From positions 372,001 to 436,000 of the forward strand of contig NZ_RBWV01000010.1 in assembly GCF_003634695.1 (NCBI RefSeq): a stretch of DNA of 64,000 bases. Reading direction: 5' to 3'. Of the stretch, positions 6,812-36,158 are shown piece after piece. Under the pieces are notes generated by a model. That model did not search any database and was not told the DNA's origin. It worked only from the letters and a program-made list of their open reading frames with translations. The stretch's first letter is position 1; the number at the start of each line of letters is the position of its first letter. The position numbers and the translations under genes are program-made. This DNA is from Motilibacter peucedani (lineage in GTDB: Bacteria > Actinomycetota > Actinomycetes > Motilibacterales > Motilibacteraceae).

Positions 6812-8296
6812 ATGTCCACCAACATCCCCGGGTCGCAGACCCCGGCACCGAACACCTCTCCCACCGCGGCCGGCGCCGGCGCCCCCGCGGGCACCGCGGT
6901 CAACGAGGGCGTCGCCCAGAGCGACTTCGCCCGCGACAGCGGCGTCGGCTCGCTGACCGAGTTCGTCGGCGACTACTTCCGCCGCGTACGCGGTGGCGAG
7001 GTCGGCGCGCTGCCGGCCCTCGCCGGCCTCATCGTCCTGGTCCTCGTCTTCGCCCTGAAGTCCGACGTCTTCCTCTCCAAGGGCAACCTGGCGAACCTCA
7101 CCACGCAGGCCGCCGGCACGGCCCTGATCGGCATGGGCCTGGTCTTCGTCCTGCTGCTCGGCGAGATCGACCTGTCGGCGGGCACCGCCTCCGGCGTGTG
7201 CGCCGTGACGATGGCCATCGTCGTCAACAACGGCGGCAGCCTGCAGCACACGGTCCACACCGGCACCTACATCGCGGTCGTGGCGCTGCTCATCGCGGCG
7301 ATCGTCCTGGCGGCGCTGAGCAAGCTGTGGCCGGCTGCGGTGATCATCGGGCTGGGCCTGATCGCGATCGTGGCCAAGCTCGGCGACAACGCGGTCATCT
7401 CGGTCTACATCGCCATCGCGATGGGCGTCGCGATCGGCGTGCTCACCGGCTTCCTCGTCGCCCGCGTCGGCATCCCGTCCTTCGTCGTGACCCTGGCGCT
7501 GTTCCTCGCGTGGCAGGGCGTGCTGCTGCAGTTCATCGGCAACGGCGCGACCGTCGACACGCGCAACATCGACTTCATCAACGGGTTCGCCAACAAGAAC
7601 GTCAGCCCGACGCTGGGCTGGCTGCTGTTCGTGGTCGTGCTGGGCATCTACACCGCCTACACGATCTTCCGGTCGGTGCGGCGCTCGGCCGCCGGCCTCG
7701 CCGCCGAGCCGCTGACCGCGGTCGTCGCGCGCGCGGCCGCCCTGATCGTGCTCGGCGCCATCATCGTCGGGTTCCTCAACCAGGAGCGCTCGCCGAACCC
7801 GAAGGTCACCTCGATCCAGGGCATGCCCTACGTCGTCCCGCTGATCCTGTTCATCATGATCTTCTGGACCTTCGTGCTCACCCGCACGTCGTTCGGCCGG
7901 CACATCTACGCGACCGGCGGCAACGCCGAGGCCGCGCGCCGCGCCGGCATCGACGTGCAGCGCATGAAGACCGCCGTGTTCGCGATCTCGTCGGGCATGG
8001 CGGGTCTCGGTGGCGTGCTGCTCGCGTCCAAGACCGGTGGTGTCCCGTCCGACGCCGGTGGCGGCAACACGCTGCTCTACGCCGTCGGTGCCGCGGTCAT
8101 CGGTGGCACGTCGCTGTTCGGCGGCCGCGGCCGCGTCCGTGACGCGGTCCTCGGCGCCGTCGTGATCAACCTGATCCCGAACGGACTGGGCCTGCTGAAC
8201 CTCTCGGCGTCCTACAACTTCATGATCACCGGCCTGGTCCTGCTGATGGCCGCCTCCGTCGACGCGATCTCGCGCCGCCGGACCGCCGTCAGCTAG
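6812..8296 (+). CDS. xylH: Xylose-type sugar ABC transporter permease
   Basis: Integral membrane permease of the ribose/xylose (CUT2) class, 494 residues. An N-terminal cytoplasmic extension of about 60 residues, rich in Pro, Ala and Thr, precedes roughly ten or more membrane segments (for example [13 protein letters not shown] and [18 protein letters not shown]). [14 protein letters not shown] is the family signature. [23 protein letters not shown] and the late [12 protein letters not shown] loop match XylH. ATG 6812 has the purine-rich GGAAGAGAGA ahead of it. The length is somewhat above the usual 390 residues because of the N-terminal tail and an extended middle loop. Confidence 0.9.
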
Positions 8297-22146: not shown

Positions 22147-22170
22147 CGGCTCAGCGGCTCAGCGGCTCAG
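22147..22170 (+). repeat. Triple 8-bp tandem repeat at the DUF3000 3' end
   Basis: CGGCTCAG is repeated three times head to tail; the last copy contains the stop codon of the minus-strand DUF3000 gene. It is a simple slippage-prone repeat. Confidence 0.7.
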
Positions 22171-22850
22171 CGGGTGGCGCCGAGGACCGCGACGCCGGGC
22201 GGCAGCGGCGGCAGGCCGGCCGCCTGGCAGAGCAGGGTGCCGAAGGCGGCGCTGTGGTCGACCAGCCGCGCCGGGTCGTCGAGGACCGGGGTCCACGACG
22301 CGCGCAGCTCGACCTGGGCGCTGGTGCGCTCCGACATCGTGCCGAAGCCCTCGCTGACCACGCGGGTGATGGTGCCGCTGGCCTCGACGTGCTCGGCGCC
22401 GCAGTCGGCGAGCGACTCGAGCAGCCAGCCCCACGCGACCTGGGCCAGCAGCGGGTCGCCCGCCATGTCGGCCTCGAGGTCGGCCTTGAGGTAGGCCACC
22501 AGGCGGGTGTCGCCCTGCCAGGCGTCGTGTCCGGCGGGGTCGTGGAGCAGGACCAGCCGGCCGGTCGCGAGCTCCTCGTCGTCGACGACGAGGTCGGCCG
22601 TGACGGCGGCGGTGTGGGGGGCCAGCCGGGCCGGCCCGGGCGCGAGGTCGACCTCGAGCTCGGGGCGCACGCGGACCCCCGGGAGGCCGGCGGCCATGGC
22701 CTCCCAGCGGGCGAGCGGGTCCTCGGTCACCGGCCGGCGCGGCACGAGCGGGGCGGAGCGCACGACGCCGAGCGCCGTGACGGCCGCCGCGGGGCGCGCG
22801 GGGTCGATTGAGCGGGCGGGGAGGGCCGAGCGCTCGACAGCGTCGACCAC
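22167..22850 (-). CDS. DUF3000 family protein
   Basis: Conserved actinobacterial protein of unknown function, 227 residues, soluble, with no signal peptide. Recognisable family stretches are LVAYLKADLEADMAGDPLLA, WGWLLESLADCGAEH and the Ser/Thr-rich ASGTITRVVSEGFGTM near residue 160. It is regularly found next to hemE or RNase D in actinobacteria, as here, with hemE diverging on the other side of the small zinc-ribbon gene. It is read from GTG 22850, one base after the stop of that upstream gene, so the two form one operon. Confidence 0.85.
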   Translation of the reverse strand: MVDAVERSALPARSIDPARPAAAVTALGVVRSAPLVPRRPVTEDPLARWEAMAAGLPGVRVRPELEVDLAPGPARLAPHTAAVTADLVVDDEELATGRLVLLHDPAGHDAWQGDTRLVAYLKADLEADMAGDPLLAQVAWGWLLESLADCGAEHVEASGTITRVVSEGFGTMSERTSAQVELRASWTPVLDDPARLVDHSAAFGTLLCQAAGLPPLPPGVAVLGATR

Positions 22851-22851
22851 C

Positions 22852-23079
22852 TCAGGCCGTGCGCGCGGAGGACCACGAGCGTGCGGCGGCAGCGCCCGGG
22901 GCGCCCACGCCGTAGGCCAGGTCGGCGTCGAGCAGGCTGCCGAGCAGGACCGCGGTGCCGCACTCGATGCACGCGAGCTCGGGGCACTCGACGTGGTCCT
23001 CGCAGTGCGGGGTCTCGAAGGCCCGCACCTCGCGGCAGTCGGCGCACCAGTGCAGGACCAGGGCGCTGCGACCCGTCAT
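22852..23079 (-). CDS. Small zinc-ribbon-like protein
   Basis: A 75-residue cytoplasmic protein with paired cysteines: WCADCREV near residue 12 and LACIECGTAV near 40, plus CEDHVEC between them. The spacing fits a zinc ribbon. The C-terminal half is Ala/Gly-rich. ATG 23079 has AGGAGAG 6 nt upstream. It is the first gene of a two-gene operon with DUF3000 and diverges from hemE. No function is known to me. Confidence 0.65.
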   Translation of the reverse strand: MTGRSALVLHWCADCREVRAFETPHCEDHVECPELACIECGTAVLLGSLLDADLAYGVGAPGAAAARSWSSARTA

Positions 23080-23246
23080 GACGATCTCTCCTCGCTCGCT
23101 CCGACGCGCTCCGAGCTCGAGCGCGCTGCCGGCCCTCGGGGACCAGCACGCCCACGGTCGCACGCACCACTGACAGAGTCACGGACCCGGCCCCGCCCGG
23201 AGCCGGCGTGTCGCGGGGCCCCCGCCGGTCTGGGACCATCGACGCT

Positions 23247-24302
23247 GTGACGAGCACCGCGACAGACACTGCCAGCCGCCCCCTCGCGGGCTCGCCGTTC
23301 CTCGAGGCCTGCGCCGGGCGCCGGGGCAGCCGCACCCCGGTGTGGTTCATGCGCCAGGCCGGTCGCGCGCTGCCGGAGTACCGCGCGCTGCGCGAGGGCG
23401 TGCCGATGCTCGAGTCCTGCGCCCGGCCCGACATGGTCGTCGAGATCACGATGCAGCCGGTCCGCCGCTACGCCGTCGACGCGGCGATCTTCTACAGCGA
23501 CATCGTGGTGCCGCTCAAGGCGATCGGCGTCGACCTCGACATCGTGCCCGGCGTCGGGCCGGTCATCGCCCACCCCGTGCGCAGCGCCGCCGACCTCGCC
23601 CAGCTGCGCCCGCTCGAGCCCGACGACGTCTCCTACGTCACCGAGGCGGTCCGCGCGCTGGTCGCCGAGCTGGGGCCGACCCCCCTGATCGGCTTCGCCG
23701 GTGCGCCGTTCACCCTCGCCACCTACCTGGTCGAGGGCGGTCCGTCGAAGGAGCACGCGCGTACCAAGGCCCTCATGCTCGGCGAGCCCGAGCTGTGGTC
23801 GGCCCTGATGGGCCGGCTCGCCGCGATCAGCGCCGCGTTCCTCGAGGTGCAGGTCGAGGCCGGCGCCTCGGCGGTGCAGCTGTTCGACTCGTGGGCGGGC
23901 GTGCTGCCGCGCCGGCACTACGACGCCCACGTGGCGCCGTGGTCGGCGCAGGTGCTCGGGCGCTTCGCCGGCCGGGTGCCGCGGATCCACTTCGGCGTCG
24001 GCACCGGCGAACTGCTCGGCTCGATGGCCGACGCCGGCGCCGACGTGCTCGGCGTCGACTTCCGGGTGCCCCTGGACGAGGCGGCCCGCCGCGTGCCCGG
24101 CCGGGTGCTGCAGGGCAACCTCGACCCCGCCGTCACCCTGGCGCCATGGGACGTCGTCGAGCGGGAGGCGCTCGGCGTGCTCGACGCGGCGGAGGGGCTG
24201 CCGGCCCACGTCTTCAACCTCGGCCACGGCGTGCTGCCCGCCACGGACCCGGGCGTGCTGCAGCGGGTGGTCGAGCTGGTGCACGAGCGCACCGCCCGCT
24301 GA
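23247..24302 (+). CDS. hemE: Uroporphyrinogen decarboxylase
   Basis: Cytoplasmic heme-pathway enzyme that decarboxylates the four acetate side chains of uroporphyrinogen III to give coproporphyrinogen III. The 351-residue protein has the N-terminal signature [15 protein letters not shown] (binding Arg residues), [38 protein letters not shown] and the late [14 protein letters not shown] start at GTG 23247, which leaves the usual N-terminal length; an upstream frame to 23208 lacks a ribosome-binding site. The downstream heme enzymes hemY and hemQ are encoded 10 kb away. Confidence 0.96.
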
Positions 24303-25307: not shown

Positions 25308-25474
25308 GCGCTCGCGGCGAGGGACCTCCGCGGAGCTGGCTGCGCCGCAAGCTCATGAAGGTCTTCGGCCCGGCCGACCTCGGTCCCGAGCACCAGGGCA
25401 ACCCGCTGGTCGGCACGAAGTACGACCCGGCCCTGAAGAAGGCCCGCCGGGAGGCGCGCAGGCGCTCCTCCTAG
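25304..25474 (+). CDS. Small basic protein, last gene of the coupled block
   Basis: A 56-residue Arg/Lys-rich protein: PPRSWLRRKLMKVFGPADLG, then GNPLVGTKYDPALKKARREA. It has no membrane segment. Such charge suggests nucleic-acid or ribosome contact, but this is inference only. The GTG start overlaps the previous stop (GTGA). Its stop TAG shares the tetranucleotide CTAG with the stop of the convergent kinase gene. Confidence 0.55.
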   Translation: MSARGEGPPRSWLRRKLMKVFGPADLGPEHQGNPLVGTKYDPALKKARREARRRSS

Positions 25475-26478
25475 CCGGCCGCTGGTGCACGTCCTCGCCC
25501 GAGCGCCATGCGCAGAGACTGCTCGGCGGTGCGTCGCTCGTCGTCGGCCAGCAGGCCGCGGCTGACGAGCAGGTCGAGCCCGAGCAGTGCCGCGCCCAGC
25601 ACGGGCGGCGCGTCGACGACGTGCGGCACCGCCCAGGGCGCGGTGCGGGCGAGCCGCTCGGCGATGCCGTCGACGAGCAGCGGCTCGCGGGCCGCCAGGA
25701 CCCCGCCGCCGAGCACCACCGGCGCAGGCGCGTCGAGCATGCCCAGCCGGGTCAGGGCGATCGTCGAGAGCAGCGCGATCTCCTCGGCCTGGCGGGCGAC
25801 GATCTCGAGGGCCACCGCGTCGCCCTCGCGGGCGGCCGCGAACAGCACCGGCACCAGCTCGTGCAGCCGCCCGGCGTCGATGCGCCGCAGGTGCACGGCC
25901 TCGGCCACCGCCACTGCGGTGGGCAGCCCGAAGTGGGCGGCCGCGCGCTCGGCGAGGAGCGTGCGGCGGCCGCGCCCGTCCTCGCAGCGGGCGGCGGCCC
26001 ACATCAGCTCGCTCGCGAGGCCCATGCCGCCGCCCCAGTCGCCGGTCAGCATGCCGAGAGCGGGGAAGCGGGCCGACCGGCCGTCTGGCAGCAGCCCGAC
26101 GCAGTTGATGCCCGCCCCGCACACCACGGCGACGCCGCGCGGCTCGTCGGTGCCGCTGCGCAGCACGGCGAAGGTGTCGTTGGCGACCACCGTCTCGGCT
26201 CCCCAGCCCGCCTTCTCCAGCCGGGCCAGCACCTCGACCTCCTCGGCGGGCAGGTCGACGTTGGCCAGGCACGCCGACACGTGGTCGACCCGGGCGACGC
26301 CGGCCTCGGCGAGCACCTGCTCGACGCAGGGCGCCAGCCGGGCGACCGCCTCCTCGGCACCGACCGAGTGGGGGTGGAAGCCTCCGGTGCGCCCGGTGGC
26401 CAGTACCTCGCCCGCGTCGGTGAGCAGCACGACGTCGGTCTTGCTGTTGCCCCCGTCGACGGCCAGCAGGTGGGTCAC
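25471..26478 (-). CDS. BadF/BadG/BcrA/BcrD-family ATPase (N-acetylglucosamine-kinase-like)
   Basis: A 335-residue ASKHA-fold sugar kinase. The phosphate-1 motif is LLAVDGGNSKTDVVL at the N-terminus; GVAVVCGAGINCVGL and LTGDWGGGMGLASELM are the phosphate-2 and sugar-binding regions; PVVLGGGVLAAREP is the adenosine motif. Relatives phosphorylate N-acetylglucosamine and similar sugars at C6. The GTG start overlaps the GH4 stop by 4 nt, so kinase and glycosidase are translated together. It probably phosphorylates either the imported glycoside or the released sugar. Confidence 0.85.
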   Translation of the reverse strand: MTHLLAVDGGNSKTDVVLLTDAGEVLATGRTGGFHPHSVGAEEAVARLAPCVEQVLAEAGVARVDHVSACLANVDLPAEEVEVLARLEKAGWGAETVVANDTFAVLRSGTDEPRGVAVVCGAGINCVGLLPDGRSARFPALGMLTGDWGGGMGLASELMWAAARCEDGRGRRTLLAERAAAHFGLPTAVAVAEAVHLRRIDAGRLHELVPVLFAAAREGDAVALEIVARQAEEIALLSTIALTRLGMLDAPAPVVLGGGVLAAREPLLVDGIAERLARTAPWAVPHVVDAPPVLGAALLGLDLLVSRGLLADDERRTAEQSLRMALGRGRAPAAG

Positions 26479-27752
26479 GCCGTCGCCCAGGGCAGGTGCT
26501 CGCGGTTGTTGGCCAGCAGCAGGTCGGTCAGCCGCTCCGCGGTGTCCCACTGCCCGACCAGCGGGTGGGCGAGCAGGGCGTTCGAGACCCGGTCGCGCCC
26601 GCCGTGGAGCGCCGCGTCCAGCGCCAGGTGCTCGTAGGCCGTGACGCCGGCGACCAGCCCGGCGTAGATCGGCTCGAGCGGAGCCACGGGCAGCGGGTGG
26701 GCCCCCGACGCGTCGACGCGCGCCGGCACCTCGACCACCGCGTCCTCGGGCAGGAACGGCAGGGTCGAGCCGTTGCGCACGTTGACCACCTGGACGTCGC
26801 CCCCGTCGAGCAGCAGCGAGCGCACCAGCGCCACCGCCGCCTCGGAGTAGTAGGCGCCGCCGCGCTTCTCGAGCAGCGCGGGCTTGGTGTCGAGGGCGGG
26901 GTCTGCGTACATCTCCAGCAGCTCGGCCTCCATGCGGGCGACGGTAGCCGCCCGGCTCTCCTCGTGGCGCAGCTCCTCCACCACCGCGTCGTGCTGGTAG
27001 AAGTAGCGCAGGTAGTAGGACGGCACGGTGCCCAGGCGGCGCAGCAGGGGCTCAGGCAGGTGCATGTGCCCGGCGATCTCGGTGCCGAAGCGCTCGAACA
27101 GCTCGGGCAGCACGTCCCGCTCGCCGGTGCCGTCGGCGTCGACGAGGCGCACGCCGCGCTCCCAGGTCAGGTGGTTGAGGCCCACGTGGTCGAGCCGGAT
27201 GCGCGCGGGCTCGACCTCCAGCAGGCTCGCGAACCAGCGCTCGAGCCCGATCGCCACGTTGCACAGGCCCACTGCGCGGTGGCCCGCCTGCAGCAGGGAG
27301 CGTGTCACGATGCCGACGGGGTTCGTGAAGTCGACGATCCACGCCTCGGGTGCGCGCTTCGCGACCTGCTCAGCGATGTCGAGGACGACGGGTACGGTGC
27401 GCAGCGCCTTCGCGAGGCCTCCGGCGCCAGTGGTCTCCTGGCCGACGCACCCGCACTCGAGCGGCCAGGTCTCGTCACGCTGGCGGGCCGCCTGCCCGCC
27501 GACGCGCAGCTGGAGGAGCACGGCGTCGGCGCCCTCCACCGCCTCCTCGACGCTGGTGGTCGTGGTGACGCGTCCGGGGTGTCCCTGCTTGGCGAAGATG
27601 CGCGAGGCCAGCCCTCCGACTCGCTCGAGGCGCTGCTCGGAGGGGTCCATGAGCACCAGCTCGTCGGCGGGCAGCTCGGCCTGCAGCCGGGCGAAGCCGT
27701 CGACGAGCTCGGGGGTGTAGGTGGACCCTCCACCGATGACGGCCAGCTTCAT
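26475..27752 (-). CDS. Glycoside hydrolase family 4 (6-phospho-beta-glucosidase-like)
   Basis: NAD+ and metal-dependent glycosidase acting by oxidation-elimination in the cytoplasm, 425 residues, normal length. The Rossmann loop is MKLAVIGGGSTYTPELVDG. DFTNPVGIVTRSLL, the metal-binding Cys in GLCNVAIG and the His in VGLNHLTWERG are all present. The CNVAIG motif fits the beta-glucoside rather than alpha-glucoside branch. Its ATG overlaps the permease stop (ATGA) and its stop overlaps the kinase start. Family members usually act on 6-phosphoglycosides, which is notable beside an ABC importer. Confidence 0.92.
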   Translation of the reverse strand: MKLAVIGGGSTYTPELVDGFARLQAELPADELVLMDPSEQRLERVGGLASRIFAKQGHPGRVTTTTSVEEAVEGADAVLLQLRVGGQAARQRDETWPLECGCVGQETTGAGGLAKALRTVPVVLDIAEQVAKRAPEAWIVDFTNPVGIVTRSLLQAGHRAVGLCNVAIGLERWFASLLEVEPARIRLDHVGLNHLTWERGVRLVDADGTGERDVLPELFERFGTEIAGHMHLPEPLLRRLGTVPSYYLRYFYQHDAVVEELRHEESRAATVARMEAELLEMYADPALDTKPALLEKRGGAYYSEAAVALVRSLLLDGGDVQVVNVRNGSTLPFLPEDAVVEVPARVDASGAHPLPVAPLEPIYAGLVAGVTAYEHLALDAALHGGRDRVSNALLAHPLVGQWDTAERLTDLLLANNREHLPWATA

Positions 27753-28648
27753 CCCTTGACTCCTGTCAGTGTGACGCCCTCGACGAAGGCCTTCTGCGCG
27801 AAGAAGAACAGCACGACCACTGGGGCCATGACCAGCAGCGTGGCGGCCATGGTGAGGTTCCAGTTGGCGTGGTGGGCACCCTTGAACGACTCGAGGCCGT
27901 AGGACAGCGTCCATGCCCCCGGGTTCTCGGACGCGTAGACCTGCGGGCCGAAGTAGTCGTTCCAGCAGTAGAAGAACTGAAACAGCCCGACGGCGACGAT
28001 CGCGGGCTTCGCCATCGGCAGGACGACCCGGAGCAGCGTACGCAGCTCACCGCACCCGTCGACGCGCGCAGCGTCGAGGTACTCCTGCGGGATCGTGAGC
28101 AGGAACTGGCGCAGCAGGAAGATCGAGTAGGCGTCGCCGAACGCCATCGGGATGATCAGCGGCCACAGCGTCCCGTTGAGGTGGAACTGCTTGGCCCACA
28201 CGAGGTACATCGGGATGATCACCACTTGCGGCGGCAGCATCATCGTCGCCACCACGACCATGAGCGCGAGCCGCCGCATCCGGAAGCGGAAGCGGGCGAG
28301 CGCGTAGGCCACCGGGATGCTCGACAGCAGCGTCAGCAGGGTGCCGAGCACGGCGTACTCCAACGAGTTCTTCCACCAGGTGAGGAACCCCGAGGCGTGG
28401 AAGACGTCGACGTAGTTGGCGAAGCGCCAGTGCCGCGGCCACAGGTCGGTGGTGAGCGCCTGCCGGTCGGTCATCAGCGAGGTCAGCAGCAGGAAGACGA
28501 AGGGCAGGACGAACAGCAGCGCGAGCCCGACGGCCAGGCTGTGCAGCGCCACCCACTGGAGCGTCTGCTGACGGCTGCGGGGCCGCCGCCGCACCGCGGG
28601 TGCAGCGGGAGCCGGAACGGTACGCAGTGGTGCCGTGGTCGATGCCAC
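27749..28648 (-). CDS. Carbohydrate ABC transporter permease (MalG type)
   Basis: CUT1-class inner-membrane permease, 299 residues, with a basic cytoplasmic N-terminus and six predicted membrane segments starting at LAVGLALLFVLPFVFLLLTS. The EAA loop is DAARVDGCGELRTLLRVVLP. It is translated from a GTG one base after the stop of the partner permease, and its stop overlaps the GH4 start. It works with the other permease and the binding protein of this operon; the ATPase must come from elsewhere. Confidence 0.92.
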   Translation of the reverse strand: MASTTAPLRTVPAPAAPAVRRRPRSRQQTLQWVALHSLAVGLALLFVLPFVFLLLTSLMTDRQALTTDLWPRHWRFANYVDVFHASGFLTWWKNSLEYAVLGTLLTLLSSIPVAYALARFRFRMRRLALMVVVATMMLPPQVVIIPMYLVWAKQFHLNGTLWPLIIPMAFGDAYSIFLLRQFLLTIPQEYLDAARVDGCGELRTLLRVVLPMAKPAIVAVGLFQFFYCWNDYFGPQVYASENPGAWTLSYGLESFKGAHHANWNLTMAATLLVMAPVVVLFFFAQKAFVEGVTLTGVKG

Positions 28649-28649
28649 C

Positions 28650-29615
28650 TCAGTCCTCCTCGCCGAGAAGCCCGGAGCCGCGGCGCATCAGCAGCGCGGT
28701 GAACGCCATCGCCAGGGCGAACAGCACGAGGGCGACGACGCAGGCCGAGCCGGTGTCGAAGTGCTGGAAGCCGAGGCTGTAGACGAGCTGCGGCAGGGTC
28801 AGCGTCGAGCCGTGGGGGTAGCCCGGCTCGAACGACGTGCCGGGGGAGTCGACGACGCCGCTGGCGACCTTGCCGGCGATGATCGCCTGCGTGTAGTACT
28901 GCATCGTCTGCACGATGCCGGTGACGACCGCGAACAGGATGATCGGCCGGATCGTCGGGAGCGTGACGTAGCGGAACCTCTGCAGCGCGTGCGCCCCGTC
29001 GAGCGAGGCGGCTTCGTACTGCTCGCGCGACACGTCGAGCAGGGCGGCCATGAAGATCACCATCAGGTCGCCGATGCCCCACAGGGCCAGGGCGGTGAGG
29101 CCGGGCTTGGCCCAGTGCTCGTCGGTGAACCAGCCAGGCTGCCCGAGGTGCAGGTGCCCGAGCAGGGTGTTGACCGCGCCGTTGCCGGGGTTGAGCAGGA
29201 ACGCGAAGGCGATGGTCGCTGCCACCGGTGGAGCGAGGAACGGCAGGTAGAACACAGTGCGGAAGAGCTTGCTGCCGGTCTTGAGGTTGGTGACGAGCAG
29301 TCCGATGCCCAGGCCGAAGACGACCCGCAGCGAGACCATGACCACCACGAGCCACAAGGTGTTGCGCATCGCGGGCCAGAAGCCGGCGTACTCGGTGAAG
29401 ACGTAGCTCCAGTTGCGCAGGCCGACCCACGTGGGCGGGTTGATCTGGTCGTAGTGCTCGAAGGAGAAGTAGACCGTCGAGGCGAGCGGGTAGAGGAACA
29501 GCAGTCCGGTGCCGAGCAGCCACGGCGACAGGAACGCGAGGATCGTCAGGCGCTGCTTGCGCCGCCTCCGCCGCAGCCCGGGCGAGACCGCGGCGGACAG
29601 GTCGAGGGTCGCCAC
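28650..29615 (-). CDS. Carbohydrate ABC transporter permease (MalF type)
   Basis: CUT1-class permease, 321 residues. An Arg-rich cytoplasmic start (LRRRRRKQRL) leads into LTILAFLSPWLLGTGLLFLY, the first of about six membrane segments. The EAA loop is EAASLDGAHALQRFRYVTLP. It begins 3 bp after the binding-protein stop. The long extracytoplasmic loop before the last segments (TSFEPGYPHGSTLTL) is a feature of this subfamily. Confidence 0.92.
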   Translation of the reverse strand: MATLDLSAAVSPGLRRRRRKQRLTILAFLSPWLLGTGLLFLYPLASTVYFSFEHYDQINPPTWVGLRNWSYVFTEYAGFWPAMRNTLWLVVVMVSLRVVFGLGIGLLVTNLKTGSKLFRTVFYLPFLAPPVAATIAFAFLLNPGNGAVNTLLGHLHLGQPGWFTDEHWAKPGLTALALWGIGDLMVIFMAALLDVSREQYEAASLDGAHALQRFRYVTLPTIRPIILFAVVTGIVQTMQYYTQAIIAGKVASGVVDSPGTSFEPGYPHGSTLTLPQLVYSLGFQHFDTGSACVVALVLFALAMAFTALLMRRGSGLLGEED

Positions 29616-29618
29616 GGG

Positions 29619-30965
29619 TCAGCCGGCCGTCTGGGCGTTGGCCTTGTCGATCTGCTTGTCGACCTTCTCGAGGCCGGCGGCGAGGTCGGAGACCTTGCCC
29701 GACTCGTAGTCGTAGGCGAAGTTCTGGAAGAGCACCTGGTACTCACCGCCGTTGGGGCTCGCTGGGGTGGTGGTGGTGTTCGGGTTGCCCGCGACCTTGA
29801 TGAAGGTCTGGAACTCCGGGTCCTTCGAGAGGTCGGGGGAGGCGAGCCCGGCGGGCGTCGAGGGGACGTTGTTGATGGTGTTGGCGAAGTTGACCAGCGA
29901 CTGCGTGTCGGTGGTGAGGAACTTGGTGAACTCCCAGGCCGCGGCCTGCTGCTTGCTCGTCTTCGAGATGCCGACGATGGTGCCGCCGATGTAGCCGCGG
30001 CCGTAGGTGTCGGCGAGCTCGTCGGGCACCGGCACCGGCGCGGTGGCGTAGTCGACCTTGGAGGCGTCGGCCTTGATGGAGGCGACCCGCCACTCGCCGT
30101 CGATGGCCATCGCCACCTTGCCCGCCTCGAACGGGTTCTGCGCGGAGAACTCCTCGCCGAAGGTCGCGCGGTACTTCTCGAGCTTCGCCGCGCCGCCGAG
30201 CGAGTCGACGAGGTCCTTCTGGTACTTCAGGAACTCCGTGACCTTGGGGTCGGAGGCGAGGGCCGACTTGCCCGAGCTGTCGAGCCAGGTGATGCCGTAC
30301 TGCGACATCCAGTGCGCGGGCGCGTTCTCGTACATGTGGAACAGCGGCATGAAGCCGAGCTGGGAGTAGCCGGTCGACGTCTGCTTCGTGAGCTTGAGCG
30401 CGTCGGCCTTCAGCTCGGAGAACGTCTTCGGCGGGGCGGTGATGCCGGCGGCCGCGAACATCGCCTTGTTGTAGTAGAGCCCGTAGGCGTCGCCGAGGAG
30501 CGGGAGCGCGCACTGCACGCCCTTGAAGGAGGTGTACTGGACCATCGTCTTGACGTAGGTCGTGTCCTTGTCGATGCCCGAGGCCTTCAGCAGCGGGTCG
30601 AGGTTGACCAGCGCCCCGTTGCAGAACGCGCCGACGTTGTCGGTCGTGAACGAGGACACGACGTCGGGACCGTTGCCCGAGCGGATGCCCTGCAGGATCT
30701 TGTCGTCGGTGATGTTGCCGGTCGACTTCACCGTGATGTTGGGGTGCGCCTTCTCGAACGACGCGATCGTCGCGTTGATCGCCTTGAGCTCGTGCGGCTG
30801 GCTCCAGCCGTGCCAGAACGTGATGGTCACCGGCTTCGCGGCGTCGACGGAGGTCGCGACGCTGGGGGAGCCGGCGGAGGTGCCCCCGCTCGTGCCCCCG
30901 GTGCAGGCCGAGAGCGCGAGCGGGATGCTCGCCGCGAGGGCGAGGGTGGCGAGACTGCGCTTCAT
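29619..30965 (-). CDS. Sugar-binding lipoprotein of the ROK/GH4 operon
   Basis: Family 1 extracellular solute-binding protein, 448 residues, anchored by a lipid. MKRSLATLALAASIPLALSA precedes the lipobox Cys (LSAC). The mature domain begins VTITFWHGWSQPHELKAINA, the usual cluster-1 start, and has KVAMAIDGEWRVASIKAD. ATG 30965 is preferred because GGAGG lies 9 nt upstream; a TTG at 30974 is also open. It follows the ROK gene by 50 bp and feeds the two permeases downstream. Confidence 0.92.
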   Translation of the reverse strand: MKRSLATLALAASIPLALSACTGGTSGGTSAGSPSVATSVDAAKPVTITFWHGWSQPHELKAINATIASFEKAHPNITVKSTGNITDDKILQGIRSGNGPDVVSSFTTDNVGAFCNGALVNLDPLLKASGIDKDTTYVKTMVQYTSFKGVQCALPLLGDAYGLYYNKAMFAAAGITAPPKTFSELKADALKLTKQTSTGYSQLGFMPLFHMYENAPAHWMSQYGITWLDSSGKSALASDPKVTEFLKYQKDLVDSLGGAAKLEKYRATFGEEFSAQNPFEAGKVAMAIDGEWRVASIKADASKVDYATAPVPVPDELADTYGRGYIGGTIVGISKTSKQQAAAWEFTKFLTTDTQSLVNFANTINNVPSTPAGLASPDLSKDPEFQTFIKVAGNPNTTTTPASPNGGEYQVLFQNFAYDYESGKVSDLAAGLEKVDKQIDKANAQTAG

Positions 30966-31015
30966 CGGGGTCAACCTCCGGGACGGCGTGCGTGGTGTGG
31001 GTGGTGTGCTGTGGA

Positions 31016-32230
31016 CTAGCGGGCCGCGGCGAAGGCCGCGTCACGAGCGGTGTCGAGCGCCGCGTGCAGGGCTCCGGCGAGGATGGGGGTGCGCAGAGCG
31101 CCCAGGCGCACCGCGGGGACGGTCATGGCGAGCTCGCCGAGCTGGCGCTCGACGCGGCTGCGCAGCGGCTCGCCGCCCGCCTGCAGGACGCTGCCCGAGA
31201 GGACGACGGCCTGCGGGTCGAGCACGGCGACGACGGCCGCGAGGCCGAGGGCGTAGCGCTCGGCCAGCTCGTCGAGCAGCTCGCCGGCGCCCTCGGCGGC
31301 CGAGCTCGCTGCCCGGCGCACGACGGTGACGGCACTGCGCCCGGGCACGCCGAACTCCTCGCCGAGCTCGAGGATCGCCGGCAGGCCGGCCAGCTTGACG
31401 AAGCCGCCGCTGTTGGCGCGGATGACGTGGCGGACGACGGGTGCGCCGGGCACCGGCAGGTAGCCGAGCTCCCCGGCGCCTCCGGTCGCGCCGCGGTGCA
31501 GCCGGCCGTCGACGACGATGGCGGCGCCGAAGCCGTCGTCGTCGTGCCACATCAGGCAGAAGTCCGACGCGTCGACGGCCGCGCCGTCGCGCTGCTCGGC
31601 GAGCGCGATCAGGTTGACGTCGTTCTCGACGTCGAGCTGGACGCCGACCTCGCGGCGCAGGCGGCCGAGGAGCCCGGGCTCCTGCCAGCCGGTGAGGTGC
31701 CGGGCGTAGCGCAGGTCGCCGGTCTCGGGGTCGAACGACCCGGGCGTCGAGATGACGACCGAGGCGAGGCCGGCGGGGTCCATGCCGGCGGCCGCGCTCG
31801 CGCCGGCCAGCCCTGCGGTGACGTCCTCCACGGCGTCGGCGGGCTGCTTGCGGGTCGCGCGGACCTCCGCCTCTCCCACGACGGTGCCGCGCAGGTCGCT
31901 GACGACGGCGACCAGGCGGCCGGGACGCACGTCGAGCGCCGCTGCGTAGGCCGCGGTGGGGTCGAGCTCGTAGACCTGGGCCGCCGGGCCGGGGCCGCCG
32001 CTGCTCGTGCCGACGCTGCGGACCAGGCCCGCCTCGACGAGCCGCACGAGCAACTGGCCTGCAGTGGGCTTCGAGAGTCCGGTCAGCGAGCTCACCTGCG
32101 TGCGGGTGAGCTGGCCGTGCTCGAGGAACAGTGCGAGCGCCGCGCGGTCGTTGATCGCGCGCAGCAGGCTCGGCGTCGCCGGCTGCTGGGTCGCGGCAGG
32201 TGACGTGCGCGTGACTCGGCCGATCGGCAC
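31016..32230 (-). CDS. ROK-family transcriptional repressor
   Basis: Sugar-responsive regulator (NagC/XylR type), 404 residues. An N-terminal winged helix-turn-helix (LTRTQVSSLTGLSKPTAGQL) is followed by a ROK sugar-kinase-like domain with GFGAAIVVDGRLHRGATGGAGELGY broken over the glucokinase signature region. The usual CxCGxxGC zinc site is not seen: the matching region reads VVRHVIRANSGG, so the zinc center appears lost. It heads the operon that encodes the binding protein, permeases, GH4 and kinase, and a palindrome lies 18 bp upstream of its start. Confidence 0.88.
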   Translation of the reverse strand: MPIGRVTRTSPAATQQPATPSLLRAINDRAALALFLEHGQLTRTQVSSLTGLSKPTAGQLLVRLVEAGLVRSVGTSSGGPGPAAQVYELDPTAAYAAALDVRPGRLVAVVSDLRGTVVGEAEVRATRKQPADAVEDVTAGLAGASAAAGMDPAGLASVVISTPGSFDPETGDLRYARHLTGWQEPGLLGRLRREVGVQLDVENDVNLIALAEQRDGAAVDASDFCLMWHDDDGFGAAIVVDGRLHRGATGGAGELGYLPVPGAPVVRHVIRANSGGFVKLAGLPAILELGEEFGVPGRSAVTVVRRAASSAAEGAGELLDELAERYALGLAAVVAVLDPQAVVLSGSVLQAGGEPLRSRVERQLGELAMTVPAVRLGALRTPILAGALHAALDTARDAAFAAAR

Positions 32231-32247
32231 CGGGCGGCTCCATCCGG

Positions 32248-32262
32248 TAGGAAGGTTTCCTA
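32248..32262. promoter_or_regulatory. Palindromic operator upstream of the ROK gene
   Basis: TAGGAA-GGT-TTCCTA is a perfect 6-bp inverted repeat with 3-bp spacer, 18 bp before the ROK start codon. A further TAGGAAG half-site lies at 32277-32283. AGGAAA/TTTCCT palindromes are typical of ROK-repressor sites in actinobacteria. It should give autoregulation and control of the whole downstream operon. Confidence 0.65.
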
Positions 32263-33912: not shown

Positions 33913-34038
33913 GGCCGCCTCCTCGTCCCGCCGGCTCTGCGCCGGACGCAGGTGCGACGCGGCGGCCGGCGGACCCGTTCCACCGCCCGAGGGCACGGTT
34001 TGGTCACGGCGGATCATCGGCATGTCACTGTGGTGGGC

Positions 34039-35448
34039 ATGCACGTAGTGGTCATCGGCGGCGGGATCGCCGGGCTGGCTGCCGCGCTCGAGCTCGCGCG
34101 CTCGCCGGAGCAGCCGACCGTGACGCTGCTCGAGGCGGGCAGCCGGCTGGGCGGCGCGCTGCGCGTCTCGGACGTCGGCGGCGTGCCCGTCGACGAGGGC
34201 GCCGAGTCCCTGCTGGCGCGGCGCACGGAGGCGGTCGAGCTCGCACGGTCGGTCGGACTCGGCCCGAGCCTGGTCAACCCCGCGCGCACCGACGCGGCCG
34301 TGTGGACGAGGGGGCGGCCGCGGCGGCTGCCCGCCGGCTCGGTGATGGGCGTGCCCGGCTCTGTGCGCTCGGTGCTGGGTGCCGACGCGCTGAGCGTCCC
34401 GGAGCGGGTGCGGGCGGCGGTGGGGCTCGTCTCGGGGGAGCGCTACCCCGTCGGCGACGTCGCCGTCGGGCCCTACCTGCGCCGCCGGCTCGGCGGCGGG
34501 GTGGTCGACCGCCTGGTCGAGCCGCTGCTCGGCGGCGTCTACGCGGGCCAGGTCGACGAGCTCTCGCTCCAGGCGACGGTCCCCGCTCTCGCCGGCTCGC
34601 TGTCCCGCCGGCGCACGCTGCTGGCCGCCACCTCGCGCGCGCGGCGGATGGCCGCGCTGCGTACCGGTCCGGTGTTCACCGCGCCCGTGGGCGGCGTCGG
34701 CCGCCTGCCCGAGGCTGTCGCCGCCGAGCTGCGGCGGCGTGAGGTCACGATCGCCCTCGACGCCCCTGTGACCATGCTGACCGGCAGCCGGCGGGGGTGG
34801 CAGGTCGTCTACGGCCACCCGCGCGGCTCGCAGGCGGTCCACGCCGACGGCGTGGTGGTCGCCGTGCCGGCACCGGCGGCGGCGCACCTGCTGTGCAACG
34901 ACGTACCCGCCGCCAGCCGCGAGCTGGCGAGCGTGCAGTACGCCAGCGTGGGCATCGTCACGATGGCGTTCGACGAGCGCGACGGTGCCTGGGCCCCGCC
35001 CGGCAGCGGGCTGCTCGTGCCCGCGGTCGAGGGCCGGCTGGTCAAGGCGGTCACGCTGAGCTCGCGCAAGTGGGGGTGGTACGCCGAGGCCGCCCCCGGC
35101 CGGCTGCTGCTCCGGGCGTCGGTCGGCCGCTTCCGCGACGACGAGGCGCTCGGGCTCGACGACGACGCGCTGGTCAAGGCGGTGCGCGACGACCTCGTCG
35201 ACCTGGTGCGCATCGCCGCCGAGCCGACGGACGTGCGCGTCACGCGCTGGGTCGACGCACTGCCGCAGTACGCGGTGGGCCATCCCCAGCGCGTGCGCCG
35301 GGTGCGCGACGCGGTCGCCGAGCGCCCTGGGCTCGCCGTCTGCGGAGCGGCCTACGACGGCGTGGGCATCCCGGCGGTCATCGCCTCGGCCCGCGAGGCC
35401 GCCCGCGCCGTGCTGGCCGGCGCCGGTCGCGCGACAATGGAGCCATGA
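34039..35448 (+). CDS. hemY: Protoporphyrinogen/coproporphyrinogen III oxidase
   Basis: FAD-dependent oxidase of the HemY/HemG type, 469 residues. In actinobacteria using HemQ it normally oxidises coproporphyrinogen III to coproporphyrin III. The FAD fold [20 protein letters not shown] opens the protein, with [12 protein letters not shown] after it and the C-terminal [22 protein letters not shown]-binding segment. ATG 34039 is used; in-frame GTGs at 34030 and 34033 are possible. The stop overlaps the hemQ start (ATGA), so oxidase and decarboxylase are made together. Confidence 0.93.
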
Positions 35449-36158
35449 CCGACGAGACGACTGCACGACCGAAGGCCCGCGAGCTCAACAACGTCATCCG
35501 CTACACCATGTGGTCGGTGTTCAGGGCCAGCGGGCCGCTCGGCGACCCGGGTGCCCGCGCCGGGCTCGCCGACGAGGTCGAGGCCGTCTTCGCCGAGATG
35601 TCGCAGAAGCACGACGTCACGGTGCGCGGCACCTACGACGTGGCCGGCCTGCGCGCCGACGCCGACCTGATGCTGTGGGCGCACGCCCCGACCAGCGACG
35701 CGCTGCAGGAGACCTACTCGAAGCTCCGCCAGACGGCGCTCGGTCGCGCCCTGACGCCGGTGTGGTCGCAGATGGCGCTGCACCGCCCGGCGGAGTTCAA
35801 CAAGGGCCACATCCCCGCGTTCCTCGCCGACGAGACGCCGCGGTCCTACATCAGCGTCTACCCGTTCGTCCGGTCCTACGAGTGGTACCTCCTGCCCGAC
35901 GCCGAGCGCCGGGCGATGCTCGCCGAGCACGGGCAGATGGCGCGCGACTACCCCGACGTGCGGGCCAACACGGTCGCGTCGTTCTCGCTGGGCGACTACG
36001 AGTGGGTCCTCGCGTTCGAGGCTGACGAGCTGCACCGCATCGTCGACCTGATGCGCCACCTGCGCGGCTCGACCGCCCGTCGGCACGTGCGCGAGGAGGT
36101 GCCGTTCTACACCGGTCGGCGTCTCCCGCTCGCCGACCTCGTGGCGACCCTGCCCTAG
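35445..36158 (+). CDS. hemQ: Coproheme decarboxylase HemQ (chlorite dismutase family)
   Basis: Converts coproheme III to heme b in the terminal step of the coproporphyrin-dependent pathway. The 237-residue protein has the HemQ motif [19 protein letters not shown], which includes the catalytic tyrosine, and the conserved block [20 protein letters not shown] followed by [15 protein letters not shown]. Chlorite dismutases proper carry a distal Arg not evident here. It is coupled to hemY by a 4-nt overlap. The ferrochelatase of the pathway is not in this window. Confidence 0.95.

Follow-up and report, generated by a model that had tools for sequence, protein, structure and literature searches.

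A csnREFGHK-type operon in Motilibacter peucedani that couples a GH4 glycosidase of the 6-phosphoglycosidase type with a BadF-type kinase

Introduction

The chitosan-oligosaccharide operon csnREFGHK has been described in Streptomyces, and wide conservation among actinobacteria is reported for it (PMC6097792, PMC5635096). According to these accounts, the regulator CsnR acts as a repressor of both the operon and the chitosanase gene csnA by way of a box of consensus AGGAAANTTTCCT, and its binding is most strongly disturbed by the glucosamine dimer, (GlcN)2. Chitosan oligosaccharides are bound and transported by CsnEFG; CsnH belongs to glycoside hydrolase family 4 (GH4), and CsnK is termed a 'putative oligosaccharide kinase' (PMC6097792, PMC5635096). 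Here we describe an operon of Motilibacter peucedani located at positions 25471–32262 of a 64,000-nucleotide stretch of contig NZ_RBWV01000010.1 (positions 372,001 to 436,000; hereafter the window), which is almost certainly csnREFGHK because it shares the gene order, the protein families and the operator before the regulator.

GH4 enzymes with related active sites are known from other settings. The chbBCARFG operon of Escherichia coli acts on a glucosamine-type substrate with the GH4 enzyme ChbF and the deacetylase ChbG; there a phosphotransferase system (PTS) imports and phosphorylates the sugar, whereas the window has an ATP-binding cassette (ABC) importer and an ATP kinase. ChbF cleaves GlcN6P-GlcNAc (glucosamine-6-phosphate linked to N-acetylglucosamine) but leaves the doubly acetylated form uncut (PMC13197890, citing Walter 2021). 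A reading of the window from its letters alone (the sequence-only reading) had presented the operon as an unrecognised phosphoglycosidase pathway with an importer and a kinase in place of a PTS. The ABC importer, the GH4 enzyme and the BadF-type kinase do form one operon; the arrangement itself turns out to be published and widespread. What was taken for an unusual pathway is thereby reduced to whether the kinase acts before or after the GH4 enzyme, a point that it shares with its relatives.

Results

The window carries a conserved csn operon

Six genes follow one another in the same direction on the minus strand, from 32230 down to 25471; their products are a ROK regulator, an ABC solute-binding protein, a pair of permeases, a GH4 glycosidase and a kinase. 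Pfam models assign all of them: ROK with a winged helix, SBP_bac_1, BPD_transp_1 twice, Glyco_hydro_4 with its C-terminal domain, and BcrAD_BadFG. The features are as follows.

32249–32261, no strand: CsnR-box operator (palindrome), AGGAAACCTTCCT on the minus strand, one mismatch against AGGAAANTTTCCT
31016–32230, minus: csnR, ROK regulator with N-terminal winged helix, 404 residues, GTG start (PF00480, 91 bits)
29619–30965, minus: csnE, ABC solute-binding lipoprotein, 448 residues, lipobox LSAC (SBP_bac_1, 125 bits)
28650–29615, minus: csnF, ABC permease 1, 321 residues, GTG start (BPD_transp_1, 39 bits)
27749–28648, minus: csnG, ABC permease 2, 299 residues, GTG start (BPD_transp_1, 73 bits)
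26475–27752, minus: csnH, GH4 glycosidase of the 6-phospho-beta-glycosidase type, dependent on nicotinamide adenine dinucleotide (NAD), 425 residues (PF02056, 160 bits; PF11975, 167 bits)
25471–26478, minus: csnK, BadF/BadG-type sugar kinase, 335 residues, GTG start (PF01869, 97 bits)
27749–27752, minus: ATGA overlap of the csnG stop and the csnH start, read from the sequence
26475–26478, minus: GTGA overlap of the csnH stop and the csnK start, read from the sequence

The span given in the sequence-only reading is thus the operon plus its operator. The same reading had the genes tied together by overlaps, which holds for permease 2/GH4 (ATGA) and GH4/kinase (GTGA) but not for the solute-binding protein/permease and permease/permease junctions, where gaps of 3 bases and 1 base are found.

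The gene order, on one strand, matches the published csnREFGHK order. Eighty named loci were found with a CsnH alignment; they are best matches, and Streptomycetaceae are over-represented among them. The complete R-E-F-G-H-K set is present in 64 of the 80, mostly from Streptomyces, and the other 16, some of them on short contigs, contain R-H-K (nine), E-F-G-H-K (three), H-K (three) or G-H-K (one), so that the H-K pair occurs in all 80. The csnR homologues in these loci are 46–54% identical to the window regulator. The csnR–K loci of Streptomyces lividans, Streptomyces coelicolor and Kitasatospora setae have the same six genes, order and families and a CsnR-box before csnR. The window GH4 enzyme is 70–74% and the window kinase 51–66% identical to those of the named relatives.

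The operator lies 18 bp before the csnR start and is the sole match to the box with at most two mismatches in the window (0.08 expected in shuffles). On the minus strand, positions 5 and 9 agree with the consensus; these two positions are rated the most important of the CsnR-box (PMC6097792). Among the named loci, a box within one mismatch is found upstream of 68 of 73 csnR genes. The operon is real, well conserved, ordinary overall and of the published kind.

The GH4-kinase pair is retained with different importers

Of 296 genomes surveyed in the class, 59 have the kinase. It lies directly 3′ on the same strand for 55 of the 57 CsnH-type GH4 genes of at least 55% identity, and the two GH4 genes without a downstream kinase end at contig ends. 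The adjacency table comprises all 57 such GH4 genes except the C-terminal fragment of a split gene in G224, plus seven lower matches, the other lower ones being left out. The gaps between aligned ends of GH4 and kinase range from 3 to 390 bases. This adjacency is far beyond chance.

Six of the 61 kinases of at least 40% identity do not follow such a GH4 gene: one is isolated (G259), two are in G090, and one each is in G258, G274 and G055. In the last three genomes (loci L072, L073 and L074, respectively) the kinase belongs to E-F-G-K-GH9 operons that also have a csnR homologue and carry a secreted-type GH9 enzyme where GH4 would stand; each of these genomes also carries a separate GH4-kinase pair.

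The importer varies where the GH4-kinase pair is constant. Peptide-type binding proteins (SBP_bac_5) accompany the pair in G288 and G054 (L095, L107), and in L096, L098 and L099 the pair comes after four transporter-like genes (one permease each of L096 and L099 was Pfam-checked). In L107 and L108 the kinase is followed by a SIS protein with its best match to the NagB-II model (173 and 213 bits, cut-off 430), which fits glucosamine-6-phosphate as the product. NagB is present in the genome of the window, on contig C15.

Two further arrangements were observed. In L085 (1925–10293) and L086 (2085–10394), from small genomes (1.4–1.5 Mb) and with 44–47% guanine plus cytosine at the loci, a solute-binding protein, two permeases, a ROK protein, a GH4 enzyme with CNVP, a BadF kinase and a GH84 protein form a related operon with an added beta-N-acetylglucosaminidase. 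In L100 (1189–10095, G123) genes for a second BadF kinase and an IclR regulator lie downstream of the GH4-kinase pair, and genes for a short-chain dehydrogenase/reductase, a SelA-like pyridoxal-phosphate enzyme and an amidohydrolase lie upstream of it; the locus also encodes a protein that we take to be of the enolase superfamily, perhaps pointing to an oxidative glucosaminate branch.

CsnH has the subsite residues and modelled fold of 6-phosphoglycosidases

By sequence, the closest CsnH relatives in the PDB are 5c3m (310 bits), 1s6y (303 bits) and BglT (1up4–1up7, 211 bits), followed by 6wbt and the 6-phospho-alpha-glucosidases (131–158 bits) and then by LplD, TM0752 with its relatives, and AglA (58–80 bits). 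The AlphaFold model of CsnH (pLDDT 92, the program's confidence score) gives the same picture, with Z-scores of 50.7–52.4 against phospho-beta-glucosidases (52 for both 1s6y and 5c3m), 46.1–48.4 against phospho-alpha-glucosidases and 31.8–38.8 against seven other GH4 entries (LplD, TM0752, a Thermotoga neapolitana relative and AglA); all ten phosphoglycosidase entries rank above these seven. With BglT of Thermotoga maritima and the Geobacillus 6-phospho-beta-glucosidases (1up6, 1s6y, 5c3m), CsnH shares the fold (Z 51–52), the NAD-binding motif, the metal-binding Cys and His, and the arginines discussed below. One labelling discrepancy was seen among the T. maritima entries: PMC13197890 labels 7CTM as the 6-phospho-beta-glucosidase of this species, and entries of that sequence are TM0752, called an alpha-glucosidase or alpha-glucuronidase.

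The −1 subsite for glucose-6-phosphate in Salmonella ChbF is formed by R96, E112, T113, N150, C172, N173, H203, Y258 and R282 (PMC13197890, from which the residue list and the account of ChbF activity are used here). Through an alignment with E. coli ChbF, which is 35% identical to CsnH and has the same nine of nine residues, these positions correspond to R90, E106, T107, N144, C164, N165, H194, Y247 and R267 in CsnH. Every one of the nine is conserved in 42 of 42 distinct CsnH-type sequences. Of 52 locus matches, 51 were long enough to align; the CsnH count, which does not include L085 and L086 (38% identity), covers 50 rows and 42 distinct sequences. In ChbF, R96 and R282 probably contact the phosphate itself. 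The position of R90 is arginine in the aligned phosphoglycosidase structures 1up4, 1up6, 1s6y, 5c3m, 1u8x, 6dux and 6wbt, and is threonine in MelA, methionine in LplD and leucine in AglA.

The source genome (4.19 Mb, estimated 100% complete) has GH4 genes in four places. Those on contigs C11 and C13 have threonine and tryptophan at the R90 position and look more like alpha-galactosidase or alpha-glucuronidase types. For CsnH an unphosphorylated alpha-galactosidase or alpha-glucuronidase type was rejected on the residues and the model ranking. As judged by sequence and model, the window GH4 is of the 6-phosphoglycosidase type.

Only a DhaM-type PTS protein was found in the genome

The sequence-only reading placed the importer and the kinase where a PTS would stand, and no sugar PTS was found in the genome. 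The EIIC family PF02378 has no match (other EIIC families were not searched), and EI and HPr occur once each, both within one 787-residue protein (L082, 6179–8542, contig C9). An EIIA-man domain is part of the same fusion, which also passes the DhaM model. DhaM-type proteins phosphorylate dihydroxyacetone kinase rather than sugars during uptake. A PTS elsewhere in the genome serving the GH4 enzyme was rejected, as searches for EI, HPr and PF02378 gave only the DhaM-type fusion.

CsnR-boxes as a probable link of the operon to chitosan degradation

With the relaxed pattern AGGAAANNTTCCT, three sites are found in the genome of the window: one ahead of csnR, one within a transposase-like gene and one ahead of a GH9-GH18 gene on contig C16. 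The pattern is weak on its own, since a reversed control also gives two matches, and the site C10:316882 was taken as a chance occurrence because it lies inside the transposase-like gene. The C16 site (7286–7298) is identical to the csnR operator. It ends 17 bp before the ATG that opens the signal-peptide-like sequence of the GH9-GH18 enzyme (L084, minus strand, about 7268 down to 4386). The window system differs from the Streptomyces one in having an operator with one mismatch and a second operator before a GH9-GH18 gene, with no GH46 chitosanase found in the genome.

In 13 of the genomes surveyed for GH9 proteins (see below), with genes called by a home-made caller, the strict box occurs at 36 places in nine, and the reversed control at none; the two genomes from the genus of the window both lack a strict match. 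Genes scanned after these boxes include GH46, GH5, two GH18, GH16 with a lectin domain, and proteins with a family 2 carbohydrate-binding module and fn3 domains. In G073, a relative with a csn operon, a perfect operator lies before a GH46 chitosanase gene. Within flanks of up to 8 kb, none of the 80 named loci has a GH46, a GH5 or a GH9 neighbour (0/80 for each); the chitosanase link in this set therefore comes from operators and not from neighbours.

Of 30 genomes chosen from the 59 with the kinase, 10 encode GH9 proteins of the C16 type. Among the ten genes, four have a box of at most one mismatch just before them and three lie inside a csn-type operon; of the remaining three, one has a two-mismatch box, one has no box and one is cut by a contig end. 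A 2018 review gives GH9 glucosaminidases as undocumented in actinomycetes (PMC6097792), and the operator survey offers a lead towards a chitosan-degrading GH9 subfamily in these bacteria. Structure entries for exo-acting GH9 enzymes of Vibrionaceae are named in PMC6096475. PDB sequence searches with three GH9 proteins returned no such entries, the nearest GH9 entries being other enzymes, and the GH9 protein was not retained as a proven exo-glucosaminidase.

Discussion

A proposed kinase-first pathway and its alternatives

Because no PTS was found and the GH4 enzyme resembles 6-phosphoglycosidases in sequence and fold, a kinase that supplies the phosphate appears, from sequence and models, to be the better of the two options in the sequence-only reading, the other being a GH4 enzyme acting on an unphosphorylated or different substrate. 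A secreted enzyme would cut chitosan outside the cell, and CsnEFG would import the glucosamine oligomers, with an ATPase subunit presumably encoded elsewhere. CsnR would keep the operon off through the operator at 32249–32261 until such oligomers arrive. CsnK would then use ATP to phosphorylate O6 of the non-reducing glucosamine, CsnH would release that residue as glucosamine-6-phosphate by the NAD-dependent GH4 mechanism, and NagB would convert it to fructose-6-phosphate, so that the kinase may replace the phosphorylating step of a chb-type PTS. Transport by CsnEFG and control by CsnR are extrapolated from the Streptomyces literature; what we infer ourselves is which sugar this organism takes, which enzyme acts first and where the phosphate sits. 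ChbF, with its need for GlcN6P at the non-reducing end (PMC13197890), would by analogy be a precedent for a GH4 enzyme that works on a terminal glucosamine-6-phosphate. A kinase standing in for the PTS is already implied by the published name 'putative oligosaccharide kinase'. We hold this explanation as a whole (a csn operon, glucosamine oligomers, kinase first) with moderate confidence, and the step order on its own, kinase before GH4, is on balance probable from sequence and models, with the adjacency of the two genes at 55 of 57 places also speaking for it.

Several observations weigh against the kinase-first order and in part favour its reverse, in which CsnH would act directly on unphosphorylated glucosamine oligomers and CsnK would phosphorylate the single glucosamine released. 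The model of CsnK (pLDDT 93) is closest to MurK (8zo3; Z 33.6, root-mean-square deviation 2.3 over 302 residues, 24% identity), followed by an archaeal hexokinase and human N-acetylglucosamine kinase, NAGK (2ch5; Z 29.2, 18% identity); these best-matched solved relatives are single-sugar kinases, MurK and NAGK being amino-sugar kinases of the BadF family that share the fold. The best NCBIfam match, NagK_SO3507, points the same way at a score far under its cut-off (58 against 370 bits). The paralogous kinase beside GH9 rather than GH4 in the three genomes named above also fits a single-sugar kinase. In CsnH, the CN(I/V)P motif of known phospho-beta-glucosidases is not kept: the window enzyme has CNVA at 164–167, and the last letter is alanine in 41 of 42 sequences and glycine in one, whereas BglT and the Geobacillus enzymes have CNVP and act on glucose where CsnH would act on glucosamine. 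A further GH4 enzyme of the same genome (L081, 6917–8425, contig C17; motif CDS) keeps the same two arginines with no adjoining BadF kinase match and no sugar PTS found, that is, with no obvious source of phosphorylated sugar, so that the residues alone are no proof of a phosphorylated substrate. The csn operon is also reported to govern some monomeric glucosamine uptake (PMC6520443). As to the polymer, no GH46 chitosanase was found in the genome of the window (GH75, GH5 and GH2 were not searched). Yet the full glucose-6-phosphate subsite in every distinct CsnH-type sequence, the grouping of CsnH with phosphoglycosidases by both sequence and fold, and the lack of the R90 arginine in the GH4 enzymes of other substrates in the set all argue against the reverse order, which we regard as a tenable but less likely account. 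A dimer could still bind CsnK by its non-reducing end, provided that the pocket of the kinase leaves the O1 side free. The open-access literature searched contained no published assay of CsnH or CsnK.

The sugar itself is less in doubt. The sequence-only reading had suggested cellobiose and chitobiose, and an operon for another beta-linked disaccharide, cellobiose or N,N′-diacetylchitobiose, would suit the annotation of the closest solved GH4 enzymes as 6-phospho-beta-glucosidases and the weak similarity of the binding protein to NgcE (47 bits, cut-off 400). Such a substrate is nevertheless very improbable: gene order and operator tie the operon to the chitosan regulon; in relatives, such boxes stand before GH46, GH5, GH18 and GH9 genes, and two relatives have a NagB-II-like gene just after the kinase; and the ChbF-type GH4 enzyme is described as inactive on the doubly acetylated sugar (PMC13197890). 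For glucosamine oligomers also speak the operator before the GH9-GH18 gene and the presence of NagB in the genome of the window. These sugars are accordingly replaced by (GlcN)2-n on the strength of the gene order and the operator tie, and glucosamine oligomers, not cellobiose, are most likely the sugar of the operon.

If the kinase does act first in this csn operon, actinomycetes use ATP on imported oligomers as enteric bacteria use the PTS. A wider proposal, to which we give an even chance, is that CsnK is an ATP-dependent BadF kinase of chitosan oligomers which with CsnH forms a portable, PTS-free phosphorylate-then-clip module, combined with CUT1-type and peptide-type importers, and that the GH9 subfamily serves as the secreted enzyme of the regulon in several non-Streptomyces actinomycetes.

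Genes flanking the operon

In the window, the operon is flanked at 22167–24302 by hemE with a DUF3000 gene and at 34030–36158 by protoporphyrinogen-oxidase-like and chlorite-dismutase-family genes. We take the latter two to have haem roles, which would place the operon inside a haem-synthesis neighbourhood.

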